Below, piece after piece: positions 9,607 to 31,265 of a DNA stretch of 64,000 bases. A model generated the notes under the pieces. It was not told the DNA's origin and did no database searches. It saw nothing but the letters and a program-made list of their open reading frames with translations. The position numbers and the translations under genes are program-made. How positions within the stretch are numbered: position 1 is the first letter of the stretch; each line of letters opens with the position of its first letter. This DNA comes from Pseudomonas sp. 21 (GTDB lineage: Bacteria > Pseudomonadota > Gammaproteobacteria > Pseudomonadales > Pseudomonadaceae), in NCBI RefSeq assembly GCF_000955805.1, contig NZ_JYOA01000010.1:221005-285004 (forward strand), written 5' to 3'.

Positions 9607-10092
9607 ATGACTGAACAAGCCAGCAACGGCGCAGCCGAACAAGACAACAACCCGCAGTTCTCGCTGCAGCGCATCTACGTGCGCGACCTCTCCTTCGAGG
9701 CCCCCAAGGCTCCGGAAATCTTCCGTCAGGAGTGGCAGCCGAGCATTGCCATGGACCTCAACACCCGTCAGAAGCAGCTGGACGGCGACTTCTACGAAGT
9801 GGTCCTGACCGTTTCGGTGACCGTGAAGAACAACGAGGAAACCGCTTTCATCGTTGAAGTGCAGCAGGCTGGCATCTTCCTGATCAAGGGTCTGGACGCG
9901 TCCAGCATGAGCCACACCCTGGGCGCCTTCTGCCCGAACATCCTCTTCCCGTATGCCCGCGAAACCCTGGACAGCCTGGTTGTCCGTGGTTCGTTCCCGG
10001 CGCTGATGCTGTCCCCGGTGAACTTCGATGCGCTGTACGCGCAGGAAATCGCCCGTATGCAGGCTTCCGGCGAGATCCCGTCGGTTCAGTGA
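9607..10092 (+). CDS. secB: SecB, protein-export chaperone
   Basis: SecB is a cytoplasmic tetrameric chaperone that holds preproteins unfolded and delivers them to SecA. The 161-residue protein has the expected core ([37 protein letters not shown]) and a conserved tail ([17 protein letters not shown]). Residues 1-17 are polar and probably flexible. An AAGAAGGT-like ribosome site lies before the ATG. A strong terminator follows 14 bp after the stop. Confidence 0.98.
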
Positions 10093-10105: not shown

Positions 10106-10136
10106 AAAAAAGGCGCCTTCGGGCGCCTTTTTCTTT
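10106..10136 (+). terminator. Rho-independent terminator of the secB operon
   Basis: A GGCGCC/GGCGCC hairpin with a TTCG tetraloop is preceded by AAAAAA and followed by TTTTTCTTT. The flanking A and T runs make it potentially bidirectional. Confidence 0.93.
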
Positions 10137-10206
10137 GCCTGGGATTTTGTTTGTACGAAATTTGAACAGCCATGCGAAGGCCATGCACAGCCTGCCGTTG
10201 AGCTGT

Positions 10207-10252
10207 TTATCCACAGACTGTTCCAGCAATTGCTCAAGTTTGTTGTGGGTAA
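10207..10252. other. Pair of DnaA-box-like sites
   Basis: A perfect TTATCCACA lies at 10207-10215. An inverted near match, TGTGGGTAA (complement TTACCCACA, one mismatch), lies at 10244-10252. Two more perfect boxes occur at 11869 and 11984. No function can be assigned from sequence alone. Confidence 0.4.
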
Positions 10253-10267
10253 ATGTGCGGGCTCTTT

Positions 10268-10348
10268 TGTAGGAGCGAGCTTGCTCGCGAAGCGCTTTTG
10301 CCGGTGGCGCTGGTGCCACGGTTGTTCGCGAGCAAGCTCGCTCCTACA
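10268..10348. repeat. REP-like inverted pair
   Basis: Two facing copies of the TGTAGGAGCGAGCTTGCTCG element are separated by about 30 bp (GCGCTTTTGCCGGTGGCGC and following). It lies between the secB terminator and the candidate nrsZ promoter region. Confidence 0.9.
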
Positions 10349-10365
10349 GGGAATTGCTGCGCAGT

Positions 10366-10407
10366 GCGTTCAAGTTTGGTGCAGGCGCACTAGCAGGGCG
10401 CAGGTGC
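10366..10407 (+). promoter_or_regulatory. Possible NtrC enhancer cluster upstream of nrsZ
   Basis: The NtrC consensus is TGCACC-N5-GGTGCA. Here 10386-10402 reads CGCACT-AGCAG-GGCGCA, and GGTGC half-sites occur at 10378-10382 and 10403-10407. The cluster is centred about 190 bp upstream of the predicted nrsZ start, a plausible enhancer distance. The matches are imperfect. Confidence 0.45.
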
Positions 10408-10559
10408 GGCGGCATTCGACCCGCCGGGAAATGCCAGGGGAGCGCCGCTGCCAGCGTATTTCAGGTATCGGGTTAAAAACGCTGCAAGCCGCATGCAGCA
10501 AGGCCTTTAGAGCTTTTTCGTGTCGCGCCTCAGCTCGTCGGCAAAGCCCTGAGCCGGTT

Positions 10560-10576
10560 TTGGCACGCCCTCTGCA
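10560..10576 (+). promoter_or_regulatory. Sigma-54 promoter of the candidate nrsZ RNA
   Basis: TTGGCACG-CCCT-CTGCA fits the RpoN consensus (TTGGCACG-N4-TTGCW) at all but one position, with the GG (-24) and GC (-12) doublets exactly 12 bp apart. The predicted start is near 10587, fourteen bases before the first repeat module. Confidence 0.8.
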
Positions 10577-10586
10577 ATACCCCTGA

Positions 10587-10887
10587 CAACAGCGATTTCA
10601 GGGGCCTCGGTACAGGCAGGCTGGGGAACCCCTCTTTTACATCTTGCGAGCGTGCCGCCCGAAGCGGTGGCCGTCGCAGCCGGTTCGGGGGTCCTGGTAC
10701 AGGCAGGCCGGGAAAGCCCCCTTTTTATGCCCGCAGGCGCGCCATGGCGAGCCTCGCACCCGTTAGGGGTCCTGGTACAGGCAGGCCGGGTAAACCCCTC
10801 TTTTATGCCCGCGATCCTCCCGGCGGAGGTTTCGCTTCCCGCTTCGGGGCCCCGGACCAGGCAGGCCGGGAACACCCCGCTTTTATT
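10587..10887 (+). ncRNA. nrsZ: Candidate NrsZ nitrogen-regulated small RNA, four modules
   Basis: Four imperfect repeats begin at 10601, 10688, 10766 and 10846, spaced 78-87 bp. Each shares the core GGTACAGGCAGGCCGGG (copy 4 has GGACCAGG) and is bracketed by a G-run and a C-run, followed by a T-rich stretch (CCCCTCTTTTA type). The pairing is supported by covariation: copy 2 has five G and five C where the others have four. Each unit therefore looks like a stem-loop with a processing or termination site. A sigma-54 promoter precedes the array and ntrBC is about 2 kb away. P. aeruginosa NrsZ, as I recall it, is an NtrC/RpoN-driven RNA processed into three similar modules that affects rhamnolipid synthesis through rhlA. 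Identity is inferred from architecture and location, not from an alignment. The last module overlaps the stop codon of the opposing gene. Confidence 0.72.
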
Positions 10888-11281
10888 CGGGCCGCGCGCT
10901 GATGGTCAGGCGCCAGCGCCCCCCGGCCTCGGCGCTGTCCCAGGTCCCTTGCAGGCGCCGGGTCGACAGCAGCGTCAGCAGAACCCCTTTCCCTTGCGGC
11001 TCCAGCTTCCAGCGCACCGGCGCATCGCCGATCCGCAGTTGCCCCTGCTGCGCCGTGGCAACGGCTTCGATCTGCAGCGCCAGTGCGCCCTCCAGATGAC
11101 CGGCGCGAACGGCAGGCTGCTCGTCCAGGGTCAGTACCAGTCCATTCGCCGAAGGCTCTACGGCAAGGATCTGTGTCGGTCCCTCGTGCGGCGGATTCAC
11201 CAGGCGGCCGAGCATCAGACCCAGCAGCAGGCCCAGCACACACAGCGAAACCAGCACCTTCAGCCATGGCCTGGGCCGCAT
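10883..11281 (-). CDS. Small membrane-anchored hypothetical protein
   Basis: I do not recognise a named family. The 132-residue product starts at 11281, where AAGGAG stands just upstream; a longer reading from 11335 would overlap the trmL start and lacks support. Residues 1-30 form a signal-anchor (MRPRPWLKVLVSLCVLGLLLGLMLG). The rest is a soluble, probably periplasmic beta-rich domain (VEPSANGLVLTLDEQPAVR, WRLTISARPE). It lies between nrsZ and trmL and is divergent from trmL with 52 bp between starts. Its position matches a conserved hypothetical next to trmL in P. aeruginosa (PA5126, from memory). Confidence 0.72.
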   Translation of the reverse strand: MRPRPWLKVLVSLCVLGLLLGLMLGRLVNPPHEGPTQILAVEPSANGLVLTLDEQPAVRAGHLEGALALQIEAVATAQQGQLRIGDAPVRWKLEPQGKGVLLTLLSTRRLQGTWDSAEAGGRWRLTISARPE

Positions 11282-11333
11282 TTGCTCCTTGGCGGGGGTA
11301 GAATGCCCGCCGTTCTCAGGCTCGGAGCGCTGC

Positions 11334-11795
11334 ATGTTCCACGTAATCCTTTTTCAACCGGAAATCCCCCCCAACACCGGCAACATTATCAGGCTGTGCG
11401 CCAACGCGGGCGCAAGCCTGCACCTGATCGAGCCGCTGGGCTTCGAGCTGGACGACAAGCGCCTGCGCCGCGCCGGGCTGGATTACCACGAGTACGCCAG
11501 CGTGCGTCGTTACGCGAGCCTGGAAGAGTGCCTGGAGCAACTTGGCCAGCCGCGCCTGTTCGCCTTCACCACCAAGGGCTCGCAGCCATTCCATGAAGTG
11601 GCTTACGAACGTGGCGACGCCTTCCTGTTCGGCCCGGAAAGTCGTGGCCTGCCGGAAGAGGTGCGTGACGCGCTGCCGCCGGAGCAGCGTGTACGCTTGC
11701 CGATGCGTCCTGGCTGCCGCAGCCTGAACCTGTCCAACACCGTGGCTGTGACCGTCTATGAAGCCTGGCGTCAGCACGGCTTCGCCATGGACTGA
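11334..11795 (+). CDS. trmL: TrmL, tRNA wobble 2'-O-methyltransferase
   Basis: TrmL methylates the 2'-OH of wobble nucleotide 34 in tRNA-Leu isoacceptors, using S-adenosylmethionine. I use ATG 11334, giving 153 residues that begin MFHVILFQPEIPPNTGNIIRL, the invariant N-terminus of the family; an ATG at 11289 would add an unlikely 15-residue leader. SPOUT knot motifs are present: LFGPESRGLPEEV, RLPMRPGCRSLNLSNTVAV. It is divergent from the small membrane protein and is followed by a 400-bp non-coding stretch. Confidence 0.96.
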   Translation: MFHVILFQPEIPPNTGNIIRLCANAGASLHLIEPLGFELDDKRLRRAGLDYHEYASVRRYASLEECLEQLGQPRLFAFTTKGSQPFHEVAYERGDAFLFGPESRGLPEEVRDALPPEQRVRLPMRPGCRSLNLSNTVAVTVYEAWRQHGFAMD

Positions 11796-11868
11796 GCGTT
11801 TTTTGTACGGCCCGCGCAAACCCGCGTGGGCCGTGAAGCGCAGCGGCTTGCCCCAAGCTTATCCACAG

Positions 11869-11992
11869 GCAGGCGCACAGCCGATGTGGGCAACCCGCAA
11901 ATTCCTGCACAGAAACCGAGCAAACCCCTAGACCGCGCATGCTCTGGGCTGTAGCACGTTCCTTCCCCGTTCCGTGCACAGTGTTATCCACA
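11869..11992 (+). other. Two perfect DnaA-box-like sites
   Basis: TTATCCACA occurs at 11869-11877 and 11984-11992, both followed by GG. Together with 10207 this makes three perfect boxes in under 2 kb of a GC-rich chromosome. There is no AT-rich unwinding element or dnaA gene nearby, so this is not a replication origin. A titration or regulatory role is possible but unproven. Confidence 0.4.
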
Positions 11993-12161
11993 GGTTCTGG
12001 GGGTAAATGCTACCGGGATGTGACCCGGTTTACTGGGTGTTGATGGCGGCCATGGCCCGCACCTGCAGCCGATGACACGCTCGCCAACTGCGTAGGAGCG
12101 GACTCCGTCCGTGATCGGTCAGCCCGGCACCGCGCCATGGGGCTTGGCACCGCAGCGCAAG

Positions 12162-12186
12162 AAAAAGGGGCCTTCTGGCCCCTTTG
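12162..12186 (-). terminator. Terminator of ntrBC (minus strand)
   Basis: On the minus strand a 9-bp stem AAAGGGGCC/GGCCCCTTT (loop AGAA) ends in TTTTTC. It begins 14 bp past the ntrC stop. Confidence 0.9.
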
Positions 12187-12199
12187 TCATGAAAGGATT

Positions 12200-13630
12200 T
12201 CAGTCTTCGCCGTCGTCGTCCGGGCCATCGATCTTCATGCCCAGTTCCTTGATCTTGCGGGTCAGGGTATTGCGGCCCCAACCCAGCAGCACGGCGGCAT
12301 CGCGGCGGCGGCCGGCAGTGTGCTTGAGCGCGGTCTCGATCATGATCCGCTCGAATGCCGGCACGGCGGTGTCCAGCAGGTTCGACTGTCCGCGTCCCAG
12401 CGCCTGGTCGGCCCAATGGCGCAGCGCCTGCTCCCAGTTGGCGGCCGGCACGCTGTCCTGCGGCTGGGTCATCAGCTCCGGCGGCAGGTCGTCGATGTGC
12501 ACCTCGCGGCCGGAAGCCATGACGGTGATCCAGCGGCAGGTGTTCTCCAGCTGGCGCACGTTGCCTGGCCAGCCAAGGTTCTTCAGGTATTCCTCGGTTT
12601 CCGGCTTGAGCAGCTTGGGCTCGACTGCCAGTTCCTGCGCCGCGCGGGAAAGGAAGTGCCGGGCCAGTGCCGGGATGTCCTCGCGGCGGTCGGCCAGGCG
12701 CGGGATGTGTACGCGGATGACGTTCAGGCGGTGGAACAGGTCTTCGCGGAACTTGCCCTCGCGCACCAGGTTTTCCAGGTTCTGGTGAGTGGCGGCGATG
12801 ATCCGCACGTCCACTTTCACCGGGGTGTGGCCACCCACCCGGTAGAACTCGCCGTCAGCCAGCACGCGCAGCAGGCGGGTCTGGGTGTCGGCCGGCATGT
12901 CGCCGATCTCGTCGAGGAACAGCGAACCGCCGTCGGCCTGTTCGAAGCGCCCGCGGCGCTGGTTGGCCGCACCGGTGAAGGCGCCTTTCTCATGGCCGAA
13001 CAGCTCGGACTCCATCAGGTCTTTCGGGATCGCCGCCATGTTCAGCGCGATGAACGGCGAGGCCGCGCGGGGGCTGTGGCGGTGCAAGGCGTGGGCAACC
13101 AGTTCCTTGCCGGTGCCGGACTCGCCGTTGATCAGCACGGTGATGTTGGAGTGCGAGAGGCGGCCGATGGCGCGGAACACCTCCTGCATCGCCGGCGCCT
13201 CGCCGATGATCTCCGGGGTGCGCGTCTGGTTGGCTGGCGCTTCCAGGCCCTGCTGCTCCTGGGCGTGCTGGTTGGCGCGCTTGACCAGGGAGACGGCCTC
13301 GTCCACGTCGAAGGGCTTGGGCAGGTATTCGAAGGCGCCGCCCTGATAGGAGGCCACGGCGCTGTCCAGGTCCGAGTGCGCGGTCATGATGATCACCGGC
13401 AGGCGCGGGTGCACCTCACGGATCTGCGCCAGCAGGTCCAGTCCGCTGGAGCCGGGCATGCGGATGTCGGAGATGATCACGTCCGGCTGCTGCCGGCCCA
13501 GGCGGCTCATCACGCTGTCGGCGCTGTCGAAGCTGACGGTGGTCATGCCTTCCTGCTGCAGGGCTTTTTCCAGTACCCAGCGGATGGAGCGGTCGTCGTC
13601 GACGATCCAGACAGTCTCTGATCGGCTCAT
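12200..13630 (-). CDS. ntrC: NtrC, nitrogen response regulator (sigma-54 activator)
   Basis: This is a 476-residue enhancer-binding protein starting at ATG 13630 (MSRSETVWIVDDDRSIRWV). The receiver domain (about 1-120) has the acidic pair DDD and the phospho-acceptor Asp in DVIISDIRMPG. The AAA+ domain (about 140-370) has Walker A GESGTGKE, the sigma-54 contact loop GAFTGA, and the DEIGDMPADTQTRLLRVL segment. The C-terminal Fis-type helix-turn-helix (ALKHTAGRRRDAAVLLGWGRNTLTRKI, split) binds enhancers. It lies 2 bp after ntrB and should drive the sigma-54 promoters of glnA and the nrsZ candidate in this window. Confidence 0.98.
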   Translation of the reverse strand: MSRSETVWIVDDDRSIRWVLEKALQQEGMTTVSFDSADSVMSRLGRQQPDVIISDIRMPGSSGLDLLAQIREVHPRLPVIIMTAHSDLDSAVASYQGGAFEYLPKPFDVDEAVSLVKRANQHAQEQQGLEAPANQTRTPEIIGEAPAMQEVFRAIGRLSHSNITVLINGESGTGKELVAHALHRHSPRAASPFIALNMAAIPKDLMESELFGHEKGAFTGAANQRRGRFEQADGGSLFLDEIGDMPADTQTRLLRVLADGEFYRVGGHTPVKVDVRIIAATHQNLENLVREGKFREDLFHRLNVIRVHIPRLADRREDIPALARHFLSRAAQELAVEPKLLKPETEEYLKNLGWPGNVRQLENTCRWITVMASGREVHIDDLPPELMTQPQDSVPAANWEQALRHWADQALGRGQSNLLDTAVPAFERIMIETALKHTAGRRRDAAVLLGWGRNTLTRKIKELGMKIDGPDDDGED

Positions 13631-29256: not shown

Positions 29257-29357
29257 TCGACGCGGATCGCCGCAAGATAGGGGTGTCGCCTGTAGAAATT
29301 CTGATACTGTCTTGGTTGTTCTGATTGCCAAATAACAACAAAGCATGGAGTAGCAGA

Positions 29358-31265
29358 ATGATCAGAAAGGCGCTCACCCCGCTGGCGGCTGCGTGCGCAT
29401 TGGCCATTGCCACGCAGGCCTCCGCAGCCCCTTCGCCGTATTCCACCATGGTCGTCTTCGGCGACAGCCTGAGCGATTCCGGACAGTTCGCTGATGCCGG
29501 CGGCCCCGCCGGCGCCAGCACCCGCTTCACCAACCGCGTCGGCCCGACCTACCTGGACGGCAGCGGCGAGATCTTCGGCCCCACCGCGCCGATGATCCTG
29601 GGCGGCAAGCTGGGTATCAGTGGCACCGACCTGAACCCCTCGACCTCGCTGGTCCCCGGCACCGTGGACGGCAACAACTGGGCAGTCGGCGGCTACCGCA
29701 CCGACCAGATCTACGATTCGATCACCGCTGCCGGTGGCTCGGTGGTCACCTCCGGCTCCACCAGCCGCACCCGCGACGGCTACCTGGTGAACAACCGCGC
29801 CGACCCGAACGCGCTCTACTACCTCACCGGCGGCGGCAACGACTTCCTCCAGCTGCGCATCACCAACGACCCGACGGCCCGTGCAGCGGCCGGCCGTCTG
29901 GTGGATAGCGTGGATGCGCTGCACAACGCCGGGGCGCGCTACATCATGGTCTGGCTGCTGCCGGACCTCGGCCAGACCCCTGCCACCAATGGCACCGCGC
30001 TGGAGTCCTTCGGCACCCAGCTGTCGGGCATCTTCAACGAGGAATTGGTCAGCCAGCTGGCTGCCTCCGACGCCAATGTCATCCCGCTGAATATCCCCGC
30101 GATGTTCAAGGAAGTGCTGGCCAACCCGGGCGCCTATGGCCTGGCCACCGACCAGAACCTCATCGGCACCTGCTTCAGCGGCAACAGCTGCCCCGAGAAC
30201 GCGGTGTATGGCCGACACGGCAGCAACCCCGATCCGACCAAGCTGATTTTCAACGACGGCGTGCACCCGACCATCGCCGGCCAGAGCCTGATCGCCGACT
30301 ATGCCTACTCGGTGCTCTCCGCCCCGTGGGAAGCGACCATGCTGCCGGAGATGGCCCTGGGCACGTACAACGCCTACCAGGACCAGTTGCGCAGCCAGTG
30401 GCTGGCGGACTGGGAAAACTGGCAGGGCGTGAACCAGTGGCGCGGTTTCGTCACTGGCGGAGCGCAGCACCTGGACTACGACGACCAGGACAGCGCGGCC
30501 GACGGCTCCGGCTACGGCGCCAACCTGACCCTGGGCACCAGCTACCGCCTCGATGACGCCTGGCGTGTCGGCGGCTCGCTGGGCTTCTACCGACAGAAGC
30601 TGGAGCTGGGCTCCGACGACTCCGACTACAAGCTCAACAGCTACCTGGGCAGCCTGTTCGTCCAGTTCCAGCAGAATCGCTGGTGGGCTGACGCCTCCGT
30701 GACCGGCGGCAAGCTCGACTTCGATGAGGCGAACCGCAAGTTCACCATCATCAACCACGAAGTGGAAGAAAAGGCCGATACCGACGGCAGCCTGCTGGCC
30801 TTCAGTGGTCGCCTGGGCTACGACATCGCCCAGGGCGGCGAGAACTGGCACCTGTCGCCCTTCGTCAGCGCCGACTGGGCGCGGGTGAAAGTGGACAGCT
30901 ACGAAGAGGACAGCGGCCGCTCCACCGCGCTGGCCTTCGACGAGCAGAACCGCTACTCCCGGCGCCTGGGCGTCGGTCTGCAGGGCAAGCTGGACCTGTC
31001 GCAGGACACCCAGCTGTTCGGCGAGGTCGCCGTGGAGCGCGAGTATGCCGACGACACCCAGGATGTCGGCATGAACTTCACCAGCCTGCCGGACATCGGC
31101 TTCAGCCTGCAGGGCTACACCCCGCAGAGCCACCTGCAGCGCGCCACCATCGGCTTCGCCCAGAAGCTGACCCCGGAGCTTTCGCTGCGCGGTGGCTACA
31201 GCGCGCACCGCAGCAGCGACGACCTGGCCCAGGGCGTGAACCTGGCGCTGAGCCTGGACTTCTGA
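29358..31265 (+). CDS. estA: EstA, GDSL autotransporter esterase
   Basis: This is a 635-residue outer-membrane esterase. ATG 29358 gives the signal peptide MIRKALTPLAAACALAIATQ. The passenger is an SGNH hydrolase with nucleophile Ser in VVFGDSLSDSG, GGGNDF for the block III Asn, and the Asp/His pair in DGVHPTIAGQ. The last 270 residues form an autotransporter barrel ending in LALSLDF with the expected terminal Phe. In P. aeruginosa, EstA (PA5112) is anchored on the cell surface and affects rhamnolipid production and motility. A strong hairpin terminator follows. The glyoxalase-type gene I recall between estA and fbp in PAO1 is not present. Confidence 0.96.
   Translation: MIRKALTPLAAACALAIATQASAAPSPYSTMVVFGDSLSDSGQFADAGGPAGASTRFTNRVGPTYLDGSGEIFGPTAPMILGGKLGISGTDLNPSTSLVPGTVDGNNWAVGGYRTDQIYDSITAAGGSVVTSGSTSRTRDGYLVNNRADPNALYYLTGGGNDFLQLRITNDPTARAAAGRLVDSVDALHNAGARYIMVWLLPDLGQTPATNGTALESFGTQLSGIFNEELVSQLAASDANVIPLNIPAMFKEVLANPGAYGLATDQNLIGTCFSGNSCPENAVYGRHGSNPDPTKLIFNDGVHPTIAGQSLIADYAYSVLSAPWEATMLPEMALGTYNAYQDQLRSQWLADWENWQGVNQWRGFVTGGAQHLDYDDQDSAADGSGYGANLTLGTSYRLDDAWRVGGSLGFYRQKLELGSDDSDYKLNSYLGSLFVQFQQNRWWADASVTGGKLDFDEANRKFTIINHEVEEKADTDGSLLAFSGRLGYDIAQGGENWHLSPFVSADWARVKVDSYEEDSGRSTALAFDEQNRYSRRLGVGLQGKLDLSQDTQLFGEVAVEREYADDTQDVGMNFTSLPDIGFSLQGYTPQSHLQRATIGFAQKLTPELSLRGGYSAHRSSDDLAQGVNLALSLDF

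Follow-up and report, generated by a model that had tools for sequence, protein, structure and literature searches.

The locus downstream of secB in Pseudomonas sp. 21 is, by homology, an ortholog of the small RNA gene nrsZ, with four modules behind a conserved -24/-12 promoter. It was found in a stretch of 64,000 nucleotides, the whole of which is referred to as the window. We consider it fairly probable that the locus encodes an NrsZ RNA under NtrC and sigma-54 control, that modules 1-3 carry pairing loops, that module 4 serves as the terminator, and that the array descends from a one-hairpin ancestor. The Rfam covariance model (RF02695) matches positions 10588-10815 with 132.3 bits (cut-off 76.9), both in a narrow scan and in the genome search. 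In the whole-window Rfam scan, the match covers 10588-10737 (86.5 bits). Module 4 is a separate weak RF02695 match in the narrow scan (23.1 bits). NrsZ is the sole family reported for the window at curated cut-offs.

A single-module covariance model (R1) was built from 37 modules. Because these include the window's own modules, another model (R2) was built without genus members, from 15 modules of other genera only. In the whole genome, only the four copies in the window are significant with R1 (E 1e-22 to 9e-17; next best 0.066). R2 recovers exactly these four copies (E 2e-17, 2e-14, 1.5e-12 and 3e-8; next match E 0.62). A first-pass annotation had proposed NrsZ from the letters of the window, had suggested a search with the family model, and had raised the possibility that NrsZ lies elsewhere in the genome. 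The proposal holds: the score exceeds the curated cut-off, R2 finds four modules, and genome-wide searches with RF02695 and R1 give one locus.

The sigma-54 promoter (TTGGCACGCCCTCTGCA, composed of TTGGCACG-CCCT-CTGCA) is located at 10560-10576 on the forward strand. TGGCAC and CTGCA stand just before module 1 in 25 of 25 genus loci; the survey script was anchored on this motif, and there was no genus locus without it. The bare pattern TGGCACN6TGC is not rare (four in the window, 1.57 expected). Two forward-strand sites farther upstream were scored against the NtrC consensus. Site A (CGTTCAAGTTTGGTGCA, 10367-10383) agrees at 10 of 14 positions and site B (CGCACTAGCAGGGCGCA, 10386-10402), about 19 bp from site A, at 11 of 14. 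Counted from the predicted start, they are about 185-220 bp upstream; counted from the promoter, about 160-195 bp. Both belong to a block, conserved in the 23 genus loci with the gene order of the window, in which the half-sites TGGTGC and GCACT make up what look like two adjoining NtrC-like sites. A best score of at least 11/14 was obtained for 67 of 133 upstream regions (many of them from close relatives) versus 2.3% of shuffles. The RpoN promoter and the distant NtrC-like half-sites (about 10367-10402), both predicted in the first-pass annotation, are thus retained in relatives as sequence motifs. A REP-like perfect 24-nt inverted repeat (10268-10348) is found just upstream of the NtrC-like sites. 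In a probable P. aeruginosa genome, Rfam family P33 (158 bits) maps between ntrC and nrsZ (L276:5605-5748), close to the expected position of the NrsZ enhancer; P33 was not reported in the scan of the window.

The predicted transcript of about 300 nt spans 10588-10887 (forward strand), with its start deduced from where the promoter and the first position of the model lie, and its end from the last T-run. It contains a 47-nt core in four copies, which start at 10601, 10688, 10766 and 10846. These positions had been given before, and R2 confirms the count. The repeated unit is real, but it is not uniformly about 80 bp long as had been assumed: the spacing is 87, 78 and 80. GTACAGGCAGGC is exact in copies 1-3 and is replaced by GACCAGGCAGGC in copy 4, so that the claim of one core type in every copy is correct for the first three copies, while the loop of the fourth is of another type. 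Allowing up to two mismatches, the window holds 19 occurrences of the core versus 7.3 expected; 19 was reached in 0 of 100 shuffles.

According to the models and the predicted fold, module 1 covers 10596-10650, module 2 covers 10683-10737 and module 3 covers 10761-10815, all on the forward strand, with the loop ACAGGCAG at 10612-10619, 10699-10706 and 10777-10784, respectively. Each consists of an outer G/C stem, a small bulge, an inner stem, the loop region UACAGGCAGG and a T-run. Module 4, the terminal one (10841-10895, forward strand), has ACC for the UAC of the loop. Its loop is predicted to shrink from eight to five bases (AGGCA, 10859-10863) and to be partly closed. Its T-run (TTTTATT, 10881-10887) includes, on the opposite strand, the codon at which the convergent small gene stops. 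Last modules of the ACC type number 13 among 74 counted, and all come from loci of the window's genus. Because the loop of module 4 is changed and predicted to be partly closed, the array is probably made up of three loop-bearing modules and a terminator. The suggestion that each module might be a separate regulator is therefore doubtful for module 4.

The stems are supported by covariation. When 37 modules are aligned by sequence alone, both sides change in 5 of the 11 pairs (15 cells versus 5.0 in shuffles). When divergent members are included in an alignment fitted to the structure, 9 of the 11 pairs covary (29 cells versus 8.4). The G/C runs are as described in the first-pass annotation (GGGGG/CCCCC in copy 2), and the stem covariation is seen between modules from different genomes. 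The whole RNA folds no better than its shuffles do (z 0.65), single window modules have unremarkable fold energies (z -1.3 to -1.6), and a simple terminator scan called none of the modules. The array might be considered a repeat that has no function or a DNA element that is not transcribed, as repeats do occur in this spacer (the REP-like one mentioned above). We regard this as extremely improbable in view of the compensatory stem changes, the near-invariant loop, the conserved promoter and enhancer block and the presence of nrsZ in most sampled Pseudomonadaceae genomes.

The upstream neighbor in the window is secB (9607-10092, forward, Pfam SecB). The convergent small gene (10883-11335, reverse), which codes for 150 aa and, by eye, for a membrane protein (no Pfam hit), overlaps the last nrsZ module tail to tail. 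It is followed by a trmL-like SpoU methylase gene (11334-11795, forward, Pfam SpoU_methylase) and by ntrC (12200-13621, reverse; Pfam response regulator, sigma-54 activator and HTH_8), which is the neighbor of nrsZ in most other placed loci. The order secB (+), nrsZ (+), small gene (-), trmL (+) and then, where the stretch reaches, ntrC (-) is found in 23 of 25 genus loci. The other two (L010 and L033) have ntrC (+), nrsZ (+), small gene (-), trmL (+) and secB (-). L010 is probably P. aeruginosa, judging from its 259 bits, its three modules and its location between ntrC and PA5126, the position that a review gives for nrsZ of that species. Among 173 loci, secB comes first in 28 and ntrC in 67; none of the queried genes lies upstream in 48, and the gap limit used was too short to place the other 30. 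All of the 28 secB-first loci are genus genomes or, judging from contigs of equal length, repeats of them. Judged by gene order, the block of nrsZ, small gene and trmL (about 10136-12158), with the promoter and the NtrC-like sites inside it, is inverted between ntrC and secB in the window's clade. It is flanked by 27-nt inverted arms (10109-10135 and 12159-12185, 78% complementary). The arms resemble the terminators of secB and ntrC, which is a plausible route of inversion.

Some neighborhoods deserve a remark. L033/L157 (Pseudomonas sp. BGr12) is coded as belonging to the window's genus, yet falls on the P. putida side by trmL, gene order and its single module; this may reflect misplacement, transfer or contamination. 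In L202 and L281 (Stutzerimonas and a relative), a one-module nrsZ is adjacent, by eye, to a gene for a large exported protein, and queries with ntrC, trmL and the small gene gave no matches in this neighborhood. The window also has an EstA-like ORF (29325-31265, 646 aa), with a GDSL esterase and an autotransporter part recognized by eye. Such a gene had been noted as being near nrsZ; it exists, but because it is about 18 kb away, it provides no functional link.

RF02695 matches in 25 of 25 genus genomes, with 24 above the cut-off. Four modules were counted in 13 of these genomes and three in 9, while five, two and one were each found once. The count of four, to be checked by comparison across Pseudomonas according to the first-pass annotation, is thus that of 13 of the 25 genomes. 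Compared with P. aeruginosa, which has three modules, the array is expanded, as had been supposed, but it is ordinary for the genus. At the family level, RF02695 is above the cut-off in 108 of 298 genomes and reaches E<=0.001 in 219, while R1 matches in 266 of 298 genomes and in 16 of 19 genera. R1 finds one match per genome in 146 of the 266, two in 33, three in 43, four in 36 and five in 8. Twelve weak or middling places from 11 genomes of the family were inspected, and nine look genuine (L314-L322; L315 is without a clear promoter, and that of L322 is loose, by eye). The remaining three (L323, L324 and L325) do not look like genuine nrsZ; because of these, the total of 266 and some of the per-genome counts must include chance hits. 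One-module forms are common among the relatives, are found with the promoter, and mostly score below the Rfam cut-off. Since the three-module RF02695 passes its cut-off in 108 of the 298 genomes versus 266 for the single-module R1, one-module NrsZ is likely under-annotated.

A search of named genomes for the promoter and the first loop gave at least 119 stretches, 80 of which were retrieved. All are labelled Pseudomonas, Stutzerimonas or "Pseudomonadaceae bacterium", except for a record labelled Paucimonas, which clusters with a P. putida strain in a trmL tree. The largest array seen has seven modules (L206, Pseudomonas sp. PH1b). As module number varies from one to seven in the family, it was not treated as defining NrsZ. 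The trmL tree (117 rows) requires at least 29 changes of module count, at least eight of them between one and several; it is a quick tree with many open forks, in which gain and loss are not distinguishable. In the order as a whole, 42 of 390 genomes match. The 24 that are outside the Pseudomonadaceae are all weak (E 2e-5 to 0.01). Eleven of these 24 places were inspected: the -24/-12 promoter (up to two mismatches) is absent from the 90 bases before each, and all are in open frames of at least 100 codons, which are common in such DNA. We thus see no credible member outside the family.

The one-module loci bear on the origin of the arrays. L316-L321, which are weak-scoring and adjacent to ntrC and trmL, have a single module followed by six to eight T's, with AGGCAGG kept. 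L316 and L319 differ in their stem sequences, and each is predicted to fold into one unbroken hairpin (z -3.2 and -3.7). By sequence, a strong intrinsic terminator with AGGCAGG as loop core is predicted for the single module of several divergent relatives. For a wider comparison, six possibly incomplete loci were dropped and identical arrays were counted once, so that 146 loci gave 113 distinct arrays. AGGCAGG is kept in 288 of their 290 modules (the finder allows one mismatch there). A T-run of at least four is found in 39 of 39 single modules, 61 of 74 last, 34 of 74 first and 41 of 103 middle modules. When pooled, this gives 100 of 113 for single and last modules versus 75 of 177 for internal ones. 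Because the pattern by which L127-L206 were fetched demands the exact loop in module 1, counts were repeated without them. Under a slightly different T-run rule, the numbers are then 14/14 (single), 41/49 (last), 22/49 (first) and 34/67 (middle), or 55/63 for single and last versus 56/116 for internal modules. In this reduced set, the loop GTACAGGCAGG is found in 14/14 single, 48/49 first, 60/67 middle and 29/49 last modules. The better preservation of the first loop compared to the last is in line with reports of the first 60 nt being a functional unit in P. aeruginosa.

These counts are to be read with some care. The loci are related by descent, so that Fisher values on tail and loop counts are descriptive only. 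The regex module counter differed from the covariance model for 3 of 57 loci (L013, L142 and L181), which were corrected in the trmL tree and left as they were in the T-run, tail and loop counts. The 13 of 74 last modules with fewer than four T's count against a terminator role. The commonest terminal tail, TTTTATT, is weak as evidence for a terminator because the convergent gene has its stop codon there; it is found in 22 of 22 singles that have this gene versus 4 of 17 that lack it. Within the seven-module array, any two of units 2-6 agree at 73-79 of 80 positions, while the end units agree with the rest at only 45-55. As the internal units are near-identical and the end units divergent, this array grew internally. 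Based on the spread of the one-module form, the ancestor was probably a single hairpin that was loop and terminator in one.

How the RNA would act can be outlined as follows. Under nitrogen limitation, phosphorylated NtrC would drive sigma-54 RNA polymerase from about position 10588, giving a transcript of about 300 nt that stops at the module 4 T-run. The loop ACAGGCAG exposed in modules 1-3 would pair with messenger RNAs once the RNA has been cut, or terminated, between modules. Module 4, with its fully exposed loop presumably lost in the clade, would probably be mainly a terminator and a 3' cap. Arrays would have arisen via duplication of internal units, mainly providing more loops per transcript. 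In two reviews (PMC8395346, PMC9308961), rhlA is named as a target of P. aeruginosa NrsZ and is activated post-transcriptionally, the first 60 nt are functional, ACAGGCAG is the conserved motif, and forms of about 40 and 140 nt are reported. No perfect 10-nt complement of the loop within 30 nt of an ATG is common to the 25 genus genomes, and pairing to a conserved target is therefore unsupported here. In the window's own genome, the 10-nt complement near an ATG matches only the reverse strand of nrsZ. Some 10-nt complement strings recur in several genus genomes and are, by eye, coding. An 8-nt complement, searched in four genomes, has at least 45 matches in the own genome, with no common leader, by eye, among the matches listed.

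The short forms might result from leaky termination rather than from cutting. The modules would then be weak intrinsic terminators that yield nested 5' transcripts, and copy number would set the mix of lengths. Each window module is indeed a GC hairpin followed by a T-run, and the only hairpin of the one-module relatives is presumably their terminator, of classic form in the divergent ones. By our own estimate, the 40- and 140-nt forms and the functional 60 nt, as given in the reviews, lie close to where transcripts would end after modules 1 and 2. However, internal modules more often have shorter T-runs, which might reflect selection for read-through, no module is called in the terminator scan, and "processing" is the word used in the title of the cited paper and in one review. 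We hold this account to be unlikely. The array might instead be a protein sponge, with repeated loops that titrate an RNA-binding protein and a copy number that sets the capacity. Identical loops in varying number (one to seven), the AGGCAGG count given above, the lack of a common perfect messenger target in our search, and the appearance of NrsZ in a P. aeruginosa Hfq cross-linking study (PMC6890931) would fit. Yet many species have a single copy, and the post-transcriptional activation of rhlA, the functional first 60 nt and the conserved ACAGGCAG reported in the reviews speak against it. The loop also lacks the GGA of the RsmA type, and NrsZ as an RsmA decoy was set aside for this reason. 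We judge a sponge to be improbable.

Thus, loops that would pair with messengers, followed by a terminator, remain our preferred reading of the locus. We extend it to the family only tentatively, as possible rather than probable. The root would be a loop/terminator hairpin of 50-60 nt, found in most of the Pseudomonadaceae. In several lineages, arrays of 2-7 would have grown by internal duplication with weakened terminators, the last module retaining its terminator role and perhaps losing its loop. Module number would act, under nitrogen limitation, as an evolving dial for dose or for the spectrum of RNA lengths, and the ancestral target would not be rhlA. The wide spread of the loop may point to a target older than this rhamnolipid gene. 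Compared with the three-module Rfam model, the NrsZ family has a broader range and a simpler basal form. The natural arrays, which range from one to seven modules, offer a direct test of whether copy number determines how strong the control under nitrogen limitation is, and of whether internal modules are sites of cutting or of termination. No account of module numbers in other species was found in the literature searched; the original paper on NrsZ of P. aeruginosa PAO1 (Wenner et al. 2014) was outside that search. It is thus uncertain if the family-level reading (a hairpin that is loop and terminator, with internal growth) is novel, but it is more interesting than the four-module ortholog itself.

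NrsZ of P. aeruginosa PAO1 shares with the window locus an RF02695 match above the cut-off, tandem ACAGGCAG hairpins and a -24/-12 promoter; nrsZ of the probable P. aeruginosa genome also adjoins the same convergent small gene and trmL. It differs in having three modules rather than four, while the window has an altered loop in its terminal module and an inverted block, with secB instead of ntrC upstream. CrcZ, CrcY and CrcX as well as RsmY and RsmZ are also regulated Pseudomonas small RNAs with repeated short motifs. CrcZ is sigma-54 dependent. CrcZ titrates Hfq, and RsmZ titrates RsmA. This protein titration distinguishes them from NrsZ, which has a loop that is not their motif and for which the first 60 nt are reported, in the sources cited above, to be a functional unit. 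Another comparable RNA is NfiR of Pseudomonas (Stutzerimonas) stutzeri A1501, described (PMC6606865) as a 54-nt, NtrC-dependent single stem-loop RNA that has a predicted sigma-54 site and its pairing region in the stem-loop. The two are alike in size, in the single stem-loop and in NtrC/sigma-54 control. According to the same paper, NfiR is a homolog of P. aeruginosa P11 and adjoins nasA, whereas the one-module Stutzerimonas nrsZ loci inspected adjoin other genes, by eye. On these reported neighbors, and compared by description rather than by sequence, NfiR was set aside as the NrsZ of Stutzerimonas. It is likely another family of the same design.
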